A stretch of 64,000 nucleotides of DNA from NCBI RefSeq assembly GCF_947496485.1, contig NZ_CANMCZ010000001.1, positions 1,421,596-1,485,595 of the forward strand, written 5' to 3'. Source of the stretch: an uncultured Winogradskyella sp. Lineage in GTDB: Bacteria > Bacteroidota > Bacteroidia > Flavobacteriales > Flavobacteriaceae. This document shows, piece after piece, positions 14,556-22,336 of this stretch. Both the position numbers and the translations under genes were made by a program. Position 1 is the first letter of the stretch, and every line of letters begins with the position of its first letter. The notes under the pieces are model-generated. The model worked only from the letters and a program-made list of their open reading frames with translations, searched no databases and was not told the DNA's origin.

Positions 14556-14711
14556 AACACGTTGGGTTTATAGTTGAATAAATACATTGATAGTCAGATC
14601 TTTGCAAATTTCGGAAGCGCAATATAATAAAAACAGACTGTTTATTGACATGAGATATTTGCTTAGATGTTTTGTTTCTTGCAAAAATCATCAACATGTA
14701 GAATAGAGAAA

Positions 14712-14731
14712 CCTTACTTTCTCTAGTAAGG
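14712..14731 (-). terminator. Hairpin downstream of the macroglobulin-like gene
   Basis: CCTTACT and AGTAAGG form a stem with a six-base loop, about 30 bases after the stop at 14764. On the minus strand it is followed by TTTCTCTATTC, a weak T tract. The same stem sequence recurs at 22278-22297. Confidence 0.6.
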
Positions 14732-14763
14732 CTTCAACTAATCAAAATATTAATTAAATTTAT

Positions 14764-17700
14764 CTACTCCACAATCTCAATAATATTCCCAGTAATCCAA
14801 GTTTTGTTCTCATCGCCATAATACAAATAGGCTGTACTTGCAGGCGCTTGATAATTACCAGCAATATCGGCTTTTAAATCTAATCGAATTTCTTTAGTTT
14901 CTGAGACTCTGAATTCTCGCCAGTAAAACACGAGATAGTTATCAAAGACCTCATAATATGCAACTTTGTTCTCTTCTAATATTTTTTTGAGTTGCCAAGG
15001 CTGTGCTGTTGTACCAGACGGAATCCCAATAATAGTCGTGACCATACCTAAGGGCTCTTGTTTTTTATTAGAGACCTTAATAGAAAAGCTCACATTATCA
15101 CCAACCGCATAATTCTTATCTAAAATAGTGGTTTCAAGTTGTAAAGGAGATGCTTCAGAACTGTCTGGTAAAGTACTATCCCATTTTACGTTTAAATTAT
15201 ATGGAAATGTGGCTTTAGAATTATTGAATTTTACACTAATAGTTTGCTTACCAGTTTTTAAATAGTTTTCAAATCCATTGATCCTTATTTTACCTTCATT
15301 ATTAATTTTTAACGATTTCGTCAATGACTTACCATTGACTATTAAAGTGATATTATCATTTTCACTTACCAATTTTTGCTTTTGTTTTTTAGTGTAATTA
15401 ATAAGGGCTTTTAAGGCCATTGCTGTCGCTTGTGTTGACCCAAACCTGTTGTATTGTCTTTGCTTTACTAAATATTCTATGCCTTTAGAAATAAGCGCTT
15501 CGTTTAGGTTAGATTCGTACATTAATGCCAATAAGGTCAAGGCTGTTGTTTCTATATTTTTTGAATTGCCATACGATCTTGTAATCGTATTTTCTACAGG
15601 CAATTTATTAAAACCGTAACGCTCAATATTTGCTTTGATTTGAGTAATTAAAGTTTCAAAATTTTCACCTTTATTCAAATTCTTGCTTGTCATGGCAAGT
15701 AATGCCATTTTATAAGTATCGTTACTTTTAATAGCATCATTATATGCTGTATTATATTCGAGTTCTATGTCTGCTTCGATTTTAGCTTCGCTAAGTGCGT
15801 ATACAATGTAAGCATTAGCCACATCTGTAGGTGAACTTGCAAAACTATCATAGCCCTTTTTACTCTTTTTAAAACCGCCTTTACCGTCTTTTCTGCTTAA
15901 CAACCAATCTACGGTTCTCGCAATCATTTTATCGTTTACACCATTGTATACTTCTTTCATTTCGGTAAATTCCAAAATACCGTAAGCGGTTAAAGTTTCA
16001 TGTGGAGGTGTATGTCCAAACCATTCAAATCCACCTTTTGAAGTTTCAAAACTTATCAGTCTTTTGTAGCCTTTTTTGATAAAGTCTAAAGCTTTAGCCT
16101 CAATTTTAGAATTACTTTTCCCAGACTCTTTAAGGTATTTTAAAACCATAATATTAGGATAGGTTGTGGATGAGGTTTGCTCAAAACAACCATAAGGTTG
16201 ACGTATTAAAGACTCAATACCATCCATGACATCTCCTACAATGTCCGTGTAAATATTGAATTCTGTCGTAATTGTATTTTCAACAGCATGATTAATATCA
16301 AATTCAAAACGTTCGGATTTTGAACCAGATAAAGAGATTTCTGTTGGGAAATATGGACTTATAATAGTGGCTTGTTTTTTAACAAGATCTTTATAATCTT
16401 GAGACGTGGCTAAAACCGAAATTTCAATGGCCTCTCCCTTTGTTATTGGTATTACTTTAATATGTTTTGTTGTAGCACTTAGTGCGTCGACTTGTATGTT
16501 TTCTTCAAAATCTTCAATTAATTTTAAATGGTTTGGAAGTAGGATTTGTAACCTAGTATCTAATGCTTTGTTAGTTTCATTTGTAATGGTTATTGGTAAA
16601 GAAATAGTATCATTTAAAACCATATAGTTAGGTGTTTTGAAATCTAAATTCAGCAATTTCTTTGTAGCATAAAGCTTATCCTTTTTACCAACAAGACCAT
16701 TAAAACCAATCCCTTCAGTAGTGATTTTAAAAGAGGTTACAGCATCAGAATTATAAAATTCTAATTCCGCTATACCATCAGCATTAGTTTGCACTACAGG
16801 ATTCCAGTATATGGTTTGCCTAAAATCTGTGCGCTCTTCTGGCAAGTGATTCCCTTCATATTTAGGCATGTAGAAATTTCTAGACTTCGCCGTACGAATG
16901 GGATTAGAATTATAGAATTGTTTAATAGTGTAGTTATTATATTTTTTATTATTTAGTCGTTTAGTGGCACCACTACCATGATAACTCCCACCATGCTTTG
17001 TATTAATAAGAATGACGCCATTAGCTCCACTTGAGCCATAGATACTTGTTGCTGTTGCGTCTTTTAATACCGTAACACTTTGCACTTGTTGTGGATCTAT
17101 ATCTCCAAAAACAGATTGCTCGTAAGGGACTCCATCCACTACAACAAGTGGTTGGTTGTTGCCAGAAACTGATCCAAACCCTCTAATTCTTACTGTAGGT
17201 GTACTTCCTGGTTGCCCTGATGCATTTACAATACTTATACCAGCAACTTCCCCAGCTAAAGCATTTACTATAGAGTTGCCATTAATTGAAATATCTTCTG
17301 CTGAGACTGTAGTTACTGAGCCTGCAAATGCTTTTTTTGAAGTCGTTCCATAGCCAACTACAACGACTTCGTCCATTGCATTATCTAGATTTAAACCCAC
17401 AGATACTAATGCTTTTTGTTTAATCGTTTCTTTAAGTGGTTTTTCATTCTTCTCAAAAGTTTTAAAGCTATCCTTGTTTTCTCTGTTATTTGGTTTTGTC
17501 TGGTTATTGTAATTGCCTTTTTTTAAGTGAGTTTGTTCTATGGTAACACGTTCCCCATTATCTTTATATGCTAACAAAGTGAGGTAATTGTTTTTGTTGA
17601 ATTTAAAAGCAAACGATCCGTCTTCTTCGGTATCAAAAACCAAAACTTGTGTTCCTTTCCTATCAAAAAGCAATAGATGCGCTTGTGTAGGTTTTCCTTT

Positions 17701-19338
17701 TTTGTCTAAAACTACACCATTTTGTATTGCGCTTTGCTCTGGTAAATATTTTGCGTTCTTAGTTGTAATATTAGGTGTGTTTATGTAATCTCTCCAGCCA
17801 TGTGTTAGCATAACTAAATCTAATGCTTTTGAAGATTTAGGTTCTTTAGGATTAAGATAAAATTCGGGCTTATGTAGTTTACCTTTGAGTTCTGATGATA
17901 TTAGCAAATACGATAGTATATGGTCTTGCTTATCATCTGCAAAAGACAATAATTTATTATCAGTAACTGCAATCGACAAGTTTGCTGGTATTGGATTGTT
18001 TTCATCGTCATAAGTTTTTATGGTAAGCCTTACCTTTTCTCTTGTATCGTAGAGTTCTTTATTAATACTAAGATCAATATTGAGTTTTTTATGAGGATTT
18101 AAAAATACTAGACGTTCAGCAAACGTGCTATCGTAAGCATTCTTTAGACTGAATCTTGTAATACCCATTGGTAAATCTTCTGTAGGTAGAGTCACTTTTT
18201 TCTGATTTCCGATTTTCTTTTTTAGAAGCGTTCCACTGGCATTTGAAACTTCAAGAAATAAATCTGTACTATAGGTTGAAAAAATATTGAGTTGCGTATA
18301 TAGGCTATCTGTATTAACAGAAAAACGAACACCATTTTCGTGTATTTTTGGAAGCGGAATCAGTTCTTCTGAAAGAAAAGGTTCTGTTATTCTGGCAAAA
18401 TAGACTTTGTTTTTAACTGGATTAAAATTGAAGCTACCCATACCATCATGATAGCTTTCAAAATTTGAAACCACAATACTCTTTTCATCTAAAATATCAC
18501 CTTTAATATCTACAGGTTTTCCAAATTCATTTACGGCTTTAAATGCTACTTTGCTTGAACTGCCAGCTACAATTTTTCCGCTTTCAGGTAGAAACTGTAA
18601 ATCAATGTTGTTTAAAACCACGGGCACTGCTCTAGATATAGATTCGGTTGTGCCTTTATTGTAAACCAATACATTTAAAACCACGTCAGCCGTTTCTAAA
18701 TCATTGGGTAAATTAAATGTTGGCTTTAACTTACCGTCTTTATCAGTTGATGCCACTTTATTAATTATCGTCTTTCCTTTTGCATTGACTTTATAAGTAA
18801 CTTCAGTATTTGCAAGCGGATTGTTTTTTAGATCTTTAACTTCGAGATTAGAAATCACTTTAGATGATTTTCCATAACCTTCTTTTTCAAACTTTAAGTT
18901 AAGTAATAGCTTTGGTTTCACCACTTTTTGCACTGTGATTTTCTTTGTAAAAAAAGCATCATCACCGTAATTATTCATCCAATTGGTATAACATTTTAAA
19001 GTATAAATGCCACCAACCCAATCTCTATTGATGTCAAATTCTCCATAAGCATAACCCTGTTTTACATTTAGCCTTAGTGATTTAACAATAGCTCCTTTTG
19101 GAGAAATTAATTCGGAATGCATAATATCGCTCAATGTAGAAATAGTATGATCAGTACCAACGATATATGACTTAAACCAAAGGGTTTCACCAGGAAAATA
19201 GAATGGTCTATCAGTTTGGGTATAAATTTTTTCTAATGGATTATTTAAAACGTCGTATGCCTTAAATGACAATAAAGTAAGAAGGCCAAAACCAATAAAC
19301 ATTAAAAATTTTGCGTGGTGTATTAGATGTCTCATCAT
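14764..19338 (-). CDS. Alpha-2-macroglobulin-like protein carrying an internal SusC-type TonB plug domain
   Basis: 1524 residues. A signal-anchor-like N-terminus (AKFLMFIGFGLLTLLSFKAY) is followed by an MG-type domain (IYTQTDRPFYFPGETLWFKS) and further macroglobulin-like domains to about residue 640. Residues about 655-782 are an intact SusC/RagA plug: TonB-box-like DEVVVVGYGT, then VRIRGFGSVSGNNQPLVVVD, SVTVLKDATATSIYGSSG and GVILINTK. Macroglobulin architecture then resumes: an A2M domain (TIYWNPVVQTNADGIAELEF), a thioester motif C1051-F-E-Q1054 (YGCFEQTSSTTYPN), a complement-like helical domain and a receptor-binding-like beta domain. The plug sits just before the A2M domain, where protease-trapping macroglobulins have the bait region. 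The start lies two bases after the stop of the plug-less barrel gene. A function in complex with that barrel is inferred. Confidence 0.88.
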   Translation of the reverse strand: MMRHLIHHAKFLMFIGFGLLTLLSFKAYDVLNNPLEKIYTQTDRPFYFPGETLWFKSYIVGTDHTISTLSDIMHSELISPKGAIVKSLRLNVKQGYAYGEFDINRDWVGGIYTLKCYTNWMNNYGDDAFFTKKITVQKVVKPKLLLNLKFEKEGYGKSSKVISNLEVKDLKNNPLANTEVTYKVNAKGKTIINKVASTDKDGKLKPTFNLPNDLETADVVLNVLVYNKGTTESISRAVPVVLNNIDLQFLPESGKIVAGSSSKVAFKAVNEFGKPVDIKGDILDEKSIVVSNFESYHDGMGSFNFNPVKNKVYFARITEPFLSEELIPLPKIHENGVRFSVNTDSLYTQLNIFSTYSTDLFLEVSNASGTLLKKKIGNQKKVTLPTEDLPMGITRFSLKNAYDSTFAERLVFLNPHKKLNIDLSINKELYDTREKVRLTIKTYDDENNPIPANLSIAVTDNKLLSFADDKQDHILSYLLISSELKGKLHKPEFYLNPKEPKSSKALDLVMLTHGWRDYINTPNITTKNAKYLPEQSAIQNGVVLDKKGKPTQAHLLLFDRKGTQVLVFDTEEDGSFAFKFNKNNYLTLLAYKDNGERVTIEQTHLKKGNYNNQTKPNNRENKDSFKTFEKNEKPLKETIKQKALVSVGLNLDNAMDEVVVVGYGTTSKKAFAGSVTTVSAEDISINGNSIVNALAGEVAGISIVNASGQPGSTPTVRIRGFGSVSGNNQPLVVVDGVPYEQSVFGDIDPQQVQSVTVLKDATATSIYGSSGANGVILINTKHGGSYHGSGATKRLNNKKYNNYTIKQFYNSNPIRTAKSRNFYMPKYEGNHLPEERTDFRQTIYWNPVVQTNADGIAELEFYNSDAVTSFKITTEGIGFNGLVGKKDKLYATKKLLNLDFKTPNYMVLNDTISLPITITNETNKALDTRLQILLPNHLKLIEDFEENIQVDALSATTKHIKVIPITKGEAIEISVLATSQDYKDLVKKQATIISPYFPTEISLSGSKSERFEFDINHAVENTITTEFNIYTDIVGDVMDGIESLIRQPYGCFEQTSSTTYPNIMVLKYLKESGKSNSKIEAKALDFIKKGYKRLISFETSKGGFEWFGHTPPHETLTAYGILEFTEMKEVYNGVNDKMIARTVDWLLSRKDGKGGFKKSKKGYDSFASSPTDVANAYIVYALSEAKIEADIELEYNTAYNDAIKSNDTYKMALLAMTSKNLNKGENFETLITQIKANIERYGFNKLPVENTITRSYGNSKNIETTALTLLALMYESNLNEALISKGIEYLVKQRQYNRFGSTQATAMALKALINYTKKQKQKLVSENDNITLIVNGKSLTKSLKINNEGKIRINGFENYLKTGKQTISVKFNNSKATFPYNLNVKWDSTLPDSSEASPLQLETTILDKNYAVGDNVSFSIKVSNKKQEPLGMVTTIIGIPSGTTAQPWQLKKILEENKVAYYEVFDNYLVFYWREFRVSETKEIRLDLKADIAGNYQAPASTAYLYYGDENKTWITGNIIEIVE

Positions 19339-19340
19339 GA

Positions 19341-22172
19341 TTATATTTTTAAGTTGACTTTTAATCCAACCTCTGTTATAAGCGGAGTGTTGAAAAAGTT
19401 AAGATTATGCCCAGAATTGGTATCGAAAAGTGATGCATATGGCGATGCTCCGCTGTATTTAGTTATAGTGAATAGGTTATTGGCATAGATGCCTATTTCA
19501 AACTTTCTAAAGAATGCGTTGTAGTTATTATCAGAAAAATCATAAGACAACTCAATTGTTCTAAGGTTAAGATAACTAGCATCTTCAATAGCGTCCTCAG
19601 CAACTCCACTAAAACCATAGCGTACAAACCGGTTATTTTCAATGCCATTGGCTGGATTATAAAAATCCACAGGAACGTCATTAGTAACTCCTTGTTCATT
19701 AACGCCATTAAACACAAAATCAGTAATACCTCTTTGGCTAGCAGATTGCTGTGATGTGCCAAAATAATTGAGAACATTTTGAGTGCCATTCCATACGTCA
19801 CCACCTTTTTGGTAGTCTAATGTGAAAGAGAATTTTAGTTGTTTCCACTCTAATCGATTAGAAAATCCAAGTGTAAAATCGGGTATTGGATCACCAATGA
19901 TTTGTTGTTCAGCATCCACAACAGGAAATCCGTTTGCATCAATAATAATATTATTATTAGTATCTCTTGCGTAAGCAGAACCAACAATTACTCCAGCGGG
20001 TTCATCAACAATGAGATTTTTAGAAACCGATTTAAAACCAGCAATTGGTATACGTTCTTGGTTACTGTAAAGCTGTTCTACTTTATTTTTATTAGTCATA
20101 AAGCTTAGCCTGCTTTCTAGCTTTAAATCATCAAACCATTTATTAACATCTAATTGAAGTTCTAAACCTTTATTAGATATGTCAGCTATATTTTGAAGTT
20201 GAAATACTCCATTTTCCAAAACAGGAAACACACTTCCTTTTGTTTTTGAACCAAAATAACTTGCTGATAAATCCCAATTTAATTCTAATAAACGAAAACC
20301 AATTAAGGCATTAAAAGTATAATCGTGTTTTTCTTCTAATGCAATATCTTCATTAATAAATAAGTCTATATTACTGGTATAAGTAAAACTTTCTGATGGC
20401 AATAATTCTAAACTATTATGACTCTGATTATTATAAAACAAAAGCATTTCGTTAACATCAAAAGCACTACGAGCGCTAAGCGTAATGTCATTAAAATCAT
20501 AGATGTCGATAAAATCTGTTAAATCTATTTTTAAGACAGATGTTGGTAAAAGCAATTTGTTTTTTTGAATTGAAGATATGTGGCTGTTATTACTAAAGAT
20601 GATTTCAGTATTACGAGAACGAGATATTCTAATAAGCTGATTAAGCCTTAGTACATTTCTATATATTTTATTTTCAACAATGGACGTATTGCTTGGATTT
20701 GATAATGTAAATGGATTGAACTCTTCAGACTCTCTAAATTGATAATCTAAATTTTCGTTTCTAAGTTTTGCAACTGAACGTAAGTCAATAGAAAAGTCGC
20801 CTAAATGTTTTTTGTAGTTTAAGTTTAGTGATACATTAAAATTCTTACGTTTTATGGTTTTGTTACTTAGATAACCTTCTTCATACCCAATCGTATTTGC
20901 AACTAACCCAAAATTTTGCTCGTTTGTTGTGGTTTTATAATTTAACTGACTTTCAAGACTTAAATCATCAATAATTTTAAATTCATTTTCTAGGCTAAAA
21001 ACAAATAAATCATTGGCATCATAGTTTTTATTGTTGTTCAGTAACCACTCTGGATTATTATAATTTGTTGGACTAAAACTACGCTGATTATTATCTAGTA
21101 AAACTGTTCCTTGACTATTCTCAAAAGAAACAGGTGTTATCCAAGAATTTATAAGGAGGTTGTTAGTAAACGCATTAATATTGGGTTGGTTATTTATCCA
21201 TTTACTGAGTTTAACGAAGGATTTCCAGGTAAGTTTACGGTCGTAATGACGCTTATTATCAAAGCTTAGAACAATATTATCTCTTTTACTGTGCTTAAGG
21301 CCAAAAGCATCTTCAGTATTTTTATTACTAAAATCGATACCAGCAGTCCAACGGTCTGTGTCAACATTAAAATAGATATTGGTGAACCTGTTAATAGCTG
21401 TATTTAAAATAGTGTTATTATACGTATTTGCTAAGTCACCATTGCCACTTCCTAGAGGAACTAATCTTCCATTAGAATCAAAATTGTAATTACTTCCATC
21501 ATATTCTAAAGTATTTAGATTTGGTCCATACGAAAAGCTATTTCCTGTTTCAGGTCCTAGAAAATAAAGTGCTCCATTTTCTGCAGCACCTTGACTAAAA
21601 GACGATTGTAATTTTGGTAAATTTCTATCTTTTACAAATCGAAAACTTAAGTTAGACTTAACACCGACTTGAAAATAAATATCAGGATTAAAATAAGTAA
21701 GATCGACGTTTTCTGAATTAATAGTTATCGCTTTTATACGCGAAAAAGCATTATAACCTTTTTTGTTATAAGTATGTTTCGAATCTTCAATGGTTAGCGT
21801 TTTGAAGCTTTGTTTTTTAATCGATTTTAAGGCGTTATTGTAGGCATCACTTTCAATGGGTTTTACAGGAATGCGTTCAACATAATTTTGCTGCGCTACT
21901 CCAAACATATCTGCTGTGACTCTTATTTCTTTAGAGGTCATGCCAACATAGCTGATTACAATTATATCACCTACATTACATTTAATATTGTATTTACCAT
22001 CAAAATCAGTTTGTACTCCATTAGAGGTTCCTTTAATGACGATAGAAGCTCCCGGTAATGGTAATCCATCATCATCAGTAGTGAGCGTTCCTGTTACGAC
22101 ACCTTCTTGTGCCAGACCTAACAAGGGAAATAACATTAATAATAAGATTAGTTTAAGCGATATTTTATACAT
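19341..22172 (-). CDS. SusC-like TonB-dependent receptor beta-barrel lacking the plug domain
   Basis: 943 residues from the ATG at 22172; a longer TTG-initiated frame (22196) would overlap the promoter box. The signal peptide is KLILLLMLFPLLGLAQ. Residues about 25-105 are a carboxypeptidase-regulatory-like domain (LPLPGASIVIKGTSNGVQTD, GDIIVISYVGM). A normal SusC would then have a TonB box and a plug of about 120 residues. Here a linker leads straight to the SusC barrel signatures (FLGPETGNSFSYGPNLNTLE, YNFDSNGRLVPLGSGNG), and the barrel continues to the C-terminal strand VGLKVNLKI. The motifs VVDGVP, RIRG and SIYG-GANGVI are absent here but all present in the neighbouring gene. First gene of the pair, with a -7 box upstream. 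The protein is not truncated at either end. Confidence 0.88.
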   Translation of the reverse strand: MYKISLKLILLLMLFPLLGLAQEGVVTGTLTTDDDGLPLPGASIVIKGTSNGVQTDFDGKYNIKCNVGDIIVISYVGMTSKEIRVTADMFGVAQQNYVERIPVKPIESDAYNNALKSIKKQSFKTLTIEDSKHTYNKKGYNAFSRIKAITINSENVDLTYFNPDIYFQVGVKSNLSFRFVKDRNLPKLQSSFSQGAAENGALYFLGPETGNSFSYGPNLNTLEYDGSNYNFDSNGRLVPLGSGNGDLANTYNNTILNTAINRFTNIYFNVDTDRWTAGIDFSNKNTEDAFGLKHSKRDNIVLSFDNKRHYDRKLTWKSFVKLSKWINNQPNINAFTNNLLINSWITPVSFENSQGTVLLDNNQRSFSPTNYNNPEWLLNNNKNYDANDLFVFSLENEFKIIDDLSLESQLNYKTTTNEQNFGLVANTIGYEEGYLSNKTIKRKNFNVSLNLNYKKHLGDFSIDLRSVAKLRNENLDYQFRESEEFNPFTLSNPSNTSIVENKIYRNVLRLNQLIRISRSRNTEIIFSNNSHISSIQKNKLLLPTSVLKIDLTDFIDIYDFNDITLSARSAFDVNEMLLFYNNQSHNSLELLPSESFTYTSNIDLFINEDIALEEKHDYTFNALIGFRLLELNWDLSASYFGSKTKGSVFPVLENGVFQLQNIADISNKGLELQLDVNKWFDDLKLESRLSFMTNKNKVEQLYSNQERIPIAGFKSVSKNLIVDEPAGVIVGSAYARDTNNNIIIDANGFPVVDAEQQIIGDPIPDFTLGFSNRLEWKQLKFSFTLDYQKGGDVWNGTQNVLNYFGTSQQSASQRGITDFVFNGVNEQGVTNDVPVDFYNPANGIENNRFVRYGFSGVAEDAIEDASYLNLRTIELSYDFSDNNYNAFFRKFEIGIYANNLFTITKYSGASPYASLFDTNSGHNLNFFNTPLITEVGLKVNLKI

Positions 22173-22201: not shown

Positions 22202-22277
22202 TATACGATATCTAGGGCTTAAAACCGATAATGAGTGAAACGGTCAGATGAGTGAGTGAAGTGGTTAAAATTAAAAA

Positions 22278-22297
22278 CCTTACCAGAAATAGTAAGG
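22278..22297 (-). terminator. Intrinsic terminator of the AhpD-like gene
   Basis: CCTTAC / GTAAGG with an eight-base loop, followed on the minus strand by TTTTTAATTTT, 40 bases after the stop of the gene at 22337. Confidence 0.7.
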
Positions 22298-22336
22298 CTT
22301 AATCTAATATATCTAAAAGCAAAACGCTCTAATAAT

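Follow-up and report, generated by a model that had tools for sequence, protein, structure and literature searches.

The 64,000-nucleotide stretch of DNA analysed here (referred to as the window), taken from an uncultured Winogradskyella sp. of the Flavobacteriaceae (contig NZ_CANMCZ010000001.1, positions 1,421,596 to 1,485,595), carries two neighbouring minus-strand genes, the upstream one encoding a SusC-type beta-barrel protein without a plug (P0002) and the downstream one a thioester macroglobulin with a TonB-receptor plug inside its chain (P0001). The coordinates, the size of the barrel protein and the 2-base gap given in an earlier note, made from the sequence alone, proved right. The features of the pair, with the evidence for each in brackets, are the following.

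19341..22172, minus strand: plug-less SusC-type barrel gene, P0002, 943 amino acids (Pfam scan, TIGR04056, AlphaFold, structural alignment)
21912..22097, minus strand: CarboxypepD_reg-like N-terminal domain of the barrel protein, residues 26-87 (Pfam PF13715, E 2.4e-13)
21678..21896, minus strand: linker in place of Ton box and plug, residues 93-165 (AlphaFold pLDDT, DSSP)
19344..21680, minus strand: complete beta-barrel as modelled, residues 165-943 (VIA-align Z 28.4 to 5t4y_C, root-mean-square deviation 4.1, 644 residues aligned)
14764..19338, minus strand: thioester macroglobulin gene with internal plug, P0001, 1524 amino acids (open reading frame, Pfam, AlphaFold, structural alignment)
18979..19230, minus strand: MG2 domain, residues 37-120 (Pfam PF01835, E 2.3e-9)
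17512..17718, minus strand: CarboxypepD_reg-like domain before the plug, residues 541-609 (PF13620, E 0.0033, below cut-off; strands in the model)
17347..17373, minus strand: Ton-box-like DEVVVVGYG in a low-confidence linker, residues 656-664 (conservation of E657; pLDDT)
17014..17337, minus strand: TonB-receptor Plug domain, residues 668-775 (Pfam PF07715, E 4.8e-18; recurrence in relatives)
16546..16815, minus strand: A2M domain, residues 842-931 (Pfam PF00207, E 6.1e-7)
15394..16254, minus strand: thioester domain (TED), residues 1029-1315 (Pfam PF07678, E 4.7e-35)
16177..16188, minus strand: thioester motif CFEQ, residues 1051-1054 (invariant among the pairs compared)

The barrel protein has a hydrophobic start, followed by the regulatory-like domain and then the barrel. 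A Pfam scan taken up to E 1 returned carboxypeptidase-regulatory-like domains at residues 26-88 only and no Plug, and reading residues 87 to 165 by eye for a Ton box gave no DEVVV-like sequence. The linker found there instead is modelled with low confidence (predicted local distance difference test, pLDDT, <60 at about residues 91-140) and forms short strands at 146-160. Upstream, the 140 bases between the first start codon of the barrel reading frame (22196) and the next gene (22337) are too short for a 130-residue plug. The AlphaFold model, built on an alignment of 69 sequences, has a mean pLDDT of 89.1 and a predicted template modelling score (pTM) of 0.78, and Foldseek searches with the models of both proteins (best 1000 chains) gave the BT1762-1763 structures as its top matches. 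Modelled residues 165-943 pair with residues 210-1016 of BT1763 (5t4y_C) and 134-594 of BtuB, the first of which, BT1763 210 and BtuB 134, we take to lie just past the respective plugs. By its model, P0002 is a full SusC-type barrel fold that begins where known plugs end. The SusC model TIGR04056 (NCBIfam) matches both proteins of the pair below its cut-off, the barrel best at profile positions 658-980 and the macroglobulin at 60-357, with the SusC/RagA signature at macroglobulin residues 752-781. With plug and Ton box absent from its chain, the barrel protein stands outside the SusC family as defined, although it probably works like a SusC transporter.

The downstream protein is a relative of the thioester alpha-2-macroglobulins (A2M), possessing macroglobulin (MG) domains together with an A2M domain and a TED and the CxEQ motif in the form CFEQ, into which a new insert, the plug, has been introduced. 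The two SusC plug motifs named in the earlier note were located within or just before the Pfam Plug match, DEVVVVGYGT at residues 656-665 and VRIRG...VVVD at 716-735, and its description of a complete SusC plug in this protein is borne out. The AlphaFold model of residues 27-1028 (mean pLDDT 80.2, pTM 0.73) aligns along its length with C5b, C3 and A2M, with Z scores of 24.0 to 17.3 in full-length rows. Model residues 1-499 match 2qki_A, the C3 beta chain, as far as 639, and those from 813 onward match 5jpn_B, the C4 alpha chain, from 778; from these pairings on both sides, the insert, about residues 526-838 of P0001, would take the place that belongs to the anaphylatoxin in C3 and to the bait region in A2M, at the positions that we assume for these two regions. 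In the model, the slot before MG7 holds the plug and low-confidence linkers, where A2M has its protease-cleaved bait region. The plug itself spans about 626-760 in model numbering, with block-mean pLDDT of about 41-74 apart from its disordered start, and is flanked by stretches below 50 at 586-645 (residues 612-671) and 757-773. The plug is thus predicted to fill the bait/anaphylatoxin slot on disordered linkers, a placement that goes beyond the earlier note.

When named genomes were scanned with the barrel alignment, 69 loci were obtained. A macroglobulin with a plug lies 3' of the barrel on the same strand in 67 of them, including three (L127, L161 and L175) that are cut by contig ends or split in frame; the other two, a short contig (L158) and a Chitinophaga locus with both genes in several frames (L195), are absent from the adjacency table. 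The addition of more genomes gave 96 loci with both genes complete. After 15 duplicate loci and incomplete genes were dropped, 82 distinct pairs remained, the window included, and 69 of these lie below 90% identity once 13 relatives at 90% or more are set aside. The order in all 82 is barrel followed by macroglobulin with plug, mostly separated by 0-6 bases, with outliers at 155 (L188) and 50 (L138) and occasional overlaps (e.g., L189), lengths that depend on the start codon chosen. The hosts belong mainly to the Flavobacteriaceae (Winogradskyella, Aquimarina, Psychroserpens, Kordia, Tenacibaculum, Flavobacterium, Dokdonia, Leeuwenhoekiella and others) and to a second family of the same order, with further pairs in Sphingobacterium, Chitinophaga and a metagenome-assembled genome of the Bernardetiaceae. 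Their distribution is patchy. A full-length barrel was found in 8 of 60 genomes, all within the genus and counting that of the window; of 299 genomes of the family, 12 encode a full-length macroglobulin, again with the window genome counted, and in one more the gene is truncated at a contig end. In the main genus of the second family, 77 of 148 genomes gave a strong match, 40 of which were fetched at that step and some earlier.

Throughout this set the plug resides in the macroglobulin. Pfam Plug was detected in all 69 macroglobulin plug regions and in none of 51 barrels (E up to 0.1), and a plug profile built from 16 members matched 137 of 138 macroglobulin reading frames as against 0 of 138 barrel frames, duplicate loci included. 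The exception (L211, 6174-10877) is a thioester macroglobulin whose slot contains regulatory-like domains and no plug. It has no barrel neighbour, and the barrel profile gives partial matches only in its genome; it is possibly a relative that predates the plug insertion. Among the 82 pairs, the plug RG and the CFEQ motif are invariant (82/82 each) and E657 of the box is kept in 78. Conservation in 82 distinct pairs confirms that the split is real and not an error, and the sequences indicate that the plug has been relocated for good to the macroglobulin. The earlier note had described a barrel without a plug and had named conserved adjacency as its own check; this adjacency recurs across the 82 pairs, with neither a plug in the barrel gene nor a close homologue carrying the plug in its barrel. 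An apparent natural fusion of barrel and macroglobulin in one long open frame (G1094) turned out to consist of two genes separated by a stop codon. Broken copies also occur, with the barrel fragmented in L195 and L342 and the macroglobulin in two frames in L161.

The plug has a history of its own within the macroglobulin. Across 52 Flavobacteriaceae pairs, distances in 40-residue windows of the macroglobulin track those of the barrel with Spearman coefficients of 0.43-0.87, except in the windows at 661-790 (end of the box and plug), where they fall to 0.12-0.42, a decoupling that may partly reflect saturation. In 35 ordinary SusC proteins, by comparison, the plug tracks the barrel at 0.63 (0.82 at barrel distances <0.7) and is the less diverged part. 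At barrel distances <0.4, plug divergence amounts to 0.42 in the split pairs (101 pairs) vs. 0.20 in SusC (8 pairs), and two close loci, L206 and L207, differ by 0.12 outside the plug and by 0.60 within it. The SusC control and the close pairs favour a plug that is either exchanged or very fast-changing. The idea that one resident SusC is tracked by both the regulatory domain of the barrel and the plug of the macroglobulin lost weight through a near tie in the window genome and was not used.

Evidence that plug and barrel work together comes from their co-divergence in the second family. In 53 pairs (54 loci less L342, whose barrel is broken), the partial correlation between plug and whole barrel, with the rest of the macroglobulin held constant, was 0.72 (p 0.001, 999 permutations), while nine equal-length control segments of the same macroglobulin gave -0.35 to 0.38. 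Such co-divergence had already been hinted at by one pair beforehand, and the value of 0.85 in the first 14 loci prompted the enlargement of the sample; the 39 loci fetched afterwards, with 0.68 for the plug and -0.31 to 0.40 for the controls, therefore provide the fairer figure. The coupling was 0.69 when thinned to 43 pairs and 0.73 among close pairs. Plain distance correlations over all pairs did not single out the plug-barrel pair.

Comparison of individual loci located the part of the barrel involved, whose counterpart in the window is the following.

20115..20963, minus strand: residues 404-686 of the barrel protein, counterpart of the second-family half-barrel patch that switches with the plug in one clade

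Between loci L207 and L346, barrel and macroglobulin show 87-100% identity apart from barrel residues 421-690 and macroglobulin residues 631-810, which hold the plug; the two loci differ too in the periplasmic part of an anti-sigma-like protein. L207 and L204 largely have barrel patch and plug in common and differ in that periplasmic part. The plug correlates with the barrel patch at 0.60 given the flanks, and with the flanks at -0.19 given the patch; in 23 disjoint pairs, plug vs. patch gave 0.65 (p 0.0008). Where the core distance is <0.16, the patch had diverged (>0.3) in 24 of 33 pairs with a switched plug vs. 0 of 134 unswitched pairs, counts that serve as description and not as a test, the patch borders and thresholds, here and for the plug and patch types, having been set after comparisons of the L207 type had been seen. 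The switching clade comprises five plug types with three patch types, and no plug type in it occurs with two patches. In L207, nearly 900 codons separate the two patches and most windows between them are still similar, so that one recombination tract does not account for the pattern.

Several results weigh against a plug that works in its neighbour. Without the nine loci of the switching clade, the plug coupling falls to 0.38 with controls at 0.00 to 0.37, and in 63 pairs of the Flavobacteriaceae, the family of the window, it is 0.21 and lies within the controls (-0.10 to 0.31); in this family the plug also follows the barrel less closely than the remainder of the macroglobulin does, unlike in the 35 ordinary SusC proteins. 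Coupling is seen in the regulatory-like segment adjoining the plug, too (0.55 for the 53 pairs, 0.51 for the 39 and 0.65 for the first 14). A clear patch switch was present in one of the 23 disjoint second-family pairs, in which plug vs. core reached 0.53 too, and in 9 of the 33 close pairs the plug switched while the patch stayed below the 0.3 threshold. Over all 53 pairs, patch types agree better with core clades (0.73) than with plug types (0.57), and two plug types occur with more than one patch. The arginine of the YGSRG motif is kept in only 47 of 82 pairs, being serine in the window, and the plug is modelled with moderate confidence only. As far as these comparisons of sequence distances go, the co-divergence supports a plug acting in trans, with its weight on one nine-locus clade; the proposal of the earlier note to this effect is partly supported, by plugs and barrels that diverge and switch together in that clade of the second family, and finds no such backing in the window's own family.

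On balance, we favour a TonB-gated receptor of the outer membrane that is made up of two proteins, with the thioester macroglobulin providing the gate in trans. The periplasmic macroglobulin would carry, in its bait/anaphylatoxin slot, a Ton box and plug tethered by flexible linkers, and the plug, which quite probably works in the adjacent barrel, would dock inside it and thereby anchor the macroglobulin at the outer membrane. Such anchoring has a bearing on the absence of a lipobox from the macroglobulin of the window; by a simple pattern, a lipobox-like start is present in 1 of 82 macroglobulins and in no barrel. Barrel and plug would jointly recognise the ligand, after which TonB would pull the box, the plug would exit and the ligand would pass through. 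Because the plug belongs to the bait slot, a pull or a cut at this point would turn the macroglobulin active, and the thioester exposed in this way would bind an incoming protein covalently. Docking, TonB drive, thioester triggering and trapping are all steps that we infer, and a trapping reaction triggered by plug movement is the doubtful part of the scheme. The widest version of it, unlikely as it stands, would be a new class of envelope machine, in which a complement-like thioester protein serves as a channel gate that is armed when TonB pulls its built-in plug from the partner barrel, cargo of the pore is captured covalently on arrival, strains change their ligand by exchanging plug and half-barrel jointly, and a competing anti-sigma-like plug of the second family reports the event to the genome.

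This last protein, which together with its own plug is also new relative to the earlier note, leads to a different reading of the same anatomy. Here the trans plug would mainly be a relay for surface signalling, the occupancy of the barrel by the plug of the macroglobulin or of the anti-sigma-like protein, taken to sit in the inner membrane, telling an extracytoplasmic function (ECF) sigma factor of ligand or damage at the surface; this fits a plug supplied in trans and replaces the trapping function. In all 53 second-family pairs, a further gene of the locus has a plug segment (by a profile of our own) besides the macroglobulin, upstream of the barrel and on the same strand, sometimes with one gene between. 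Pfam Plug together with VWA and a secretion tail is found in this protein in L196, where an ECF sigma factor precedes it, and in L199; in L089, from the genus of the window, a small partial-plug protein is encoded upstream along with an ECF sigma factor. The anti-sigma-like periplasmic stretch is as variable as the macroglobulin plug in the pairs compared, the label 'anti-sigma' being drawn from adjacency to sigma genes and a hydrophobic span read by eye. Yet the coupling of this second plug to the barrel is weak (0.12, or 0.28-0.30 with other borders), it is little coupled to the macroglobulin plug (0.02 and 0.22), and the upstream genes of L202 and L205 are without Pfam Plug. Gene lists read by eye gave no ECF sigma or anti-sigma-like gene beside the pair in the window and no sigma gene adjoining it in most Flavobacteriaceae loci, and a relay needs no invariant thioester. 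We regard a mainly signalling role as rather improbable.

Two further observations concern these neighbourhoods. The upstream anti-sigma-like protein with its own Ton box and plug is seen in L196 (1360-4206), L199 and L312-L351, where its periplasmic stretch differs strongly between close species, and the secretion tail of the Pfam Plug cases L196 and L199 is of type IX. In most of the Flavobacterium loci listed (e.g., L088, 14097-15230), a divergent ECF sigma gene and a gene for a 210-residue protein lie beside the pair, the sigma gene being Pfam-checked in L088 only.

A second alternative separates the plug from its neighbour altogether, so that it serves other, ordinary SusC barrels or only TonB, and the adjacent barrel is an open or self-closed pore. 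One resident SusC plug does come close to the plugs (61-62% in the window genome and 58-60% in a Dokdonia), as against about 22-31% shared by the barrels with the SusC proteins compared; some SusC plugs were placed among macroglobulin plugs in a FastTree tree (support values not assessed), and the decoupled history of the plug within its host protein points the same way. However, the plug is constantly paired with a plug-less barrel and coupled to it in one second-family clade, ordinary SusC barrels already have plugs of their own, and in four of the six genomes compared, the resident SusC plugs sampled (four each) were no closer than foreign ones. This reading seems to us to have a small chance of being right. 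Smaller still is that of a bait or decoy, in which a protease trap has taken over a former SusC plug as the region where it is cleaved, and the barrel is closed by the linker at residues 93-165. It would suit the position of the plug in the bait/anaphylatoxin slot between low-confidence linkers and its greater divergence relative to the barrel than that of SusC plugs, but the box and the core motifs of the plug are kept although a bait does not need them, and the barrel linker is poorly conserved, its profile missing or barely matching the second family. An artefact, whether a mis-assembly, a split gene or a decayed SusC gene beside an unrelated fusion, is refuted by the 96 loci with both genes complete, even though L195 and L342 prove that broken copies exist, and its probability is practically nil.

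TonB-dependent transporters are regarded as single chains in which a covalent link keeps the plug with its barrel, and it has long been debated whether transport involves an exit of the plug from the pore. The SusC/RagA proteins (BT1763, RagA and BT2264) resemble the pair in barrel fold, N-terminal regulatory-like domain, Ton box and plug sequence, but unite box, plug and barrel in one chain where two proteins are found here. Aside from these, a Bacteroidota barrel closed by a separate protein is known in SprA of the type IX secretion system with its Plug protein; that system, unlike the pair, has no TonB plug domain and no macroglobulin and serves export rather than TonB-gated import. FhuA made in the laboratory as barrel and cork in two chains can reportedly work, although this is a construct and not a natural split, and involves no macroglobulin. 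On the macroglobulin side, C3, which contains a thioester, and C5 likewise have a separate domain in the slot before MG7, an anaphylatoxin there and a TonB plug here.

Bacterial alpha-2-macroglobulins are activated by cleavage in the bait region. Those described in excerpts of work on E. coli (PMC4498604) and P. aeruginosa (PMC5764988) have the MG domains, the A2M domain and the thioester motif in common with P0001, whose plug in the bait slot and barrel partner next door set it apart. A further difference is that 81 of the 82 macroglobulins here have no lipobox-like start, while YfhM, going by names in PDB, is a lipoprotein. Excerpts of the study of BT1763 (PMC7782687) place a CarboxypepD_reg-like domain before the Ton box in SusC and report that deletion of the VDEVVV box of BT1763 causes a defect in growth on levan like that caused by deletion of SusD; the macroglobulin box has DEVVV in common with this proven box. 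According to the same excerpts, a plug-free BT1763 crystal arose from proteolysis, and by cryo-electron microscopy only open states contain the plug (PMC7782687). Loss of the plug and the states observed show that plug exit is physically possible, a SusC plug being able to leave its barrel in vitro; in the excerpts the loss is due to proteolysis or to gating of one chain (PMC7782687). In the pair, by contrast, the gene itself is plug-less. A full-text search of open-licence PubMed Central (PMC) papers for macroglobulin, TonB and plug domain together returned no paper, and among the matches listed for the broader literature in that collection none was on the subject; the earlier note, too, knew of no described system of this kind. 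If the favoured reading is true, the pair joins TonB-driven import to a protein-trapping molecule, a combination for which no description was found in that literature, and bacterial macroglobulins gain an energised outer-membrane partner as well as a way of being triggered that does not involve proteolysis. Full plug exit would also become directly testable in such a natural system, where plug and barrel belong to different proteins.

Plug-bearing macroglobulin-like proteins may form a wider family. In the window genome, the loci L212 (6215-11769), L213 (6001-8463) and L214 (4588-9431) encode several MG2-type proteins of 800-925 amino acids without a thioester domain; L213 has a sub-threshold Plug match (23.2 bits vs. 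a cut-off of 23.9), and a protein of 904 amino acids in L210 passes the Plug cut-off.

The gene pair in the window lies between two terminator-like hairpins, both weak.

14708..14735, minus strand: terminator-like hairpin directly 3' of the macroglobulin gene
22275..22300, minus strand: terminator-like hairpin directly 5' of the pair, past the upstream gene

Five such hairpins were found in the region vs. 3.6 expected, and their presence on both sides of the pair is weakly consistent with a two-gene unit. The stems of the two are nearly identical in sequence (AAGCCTTACTA...GTAAGG).

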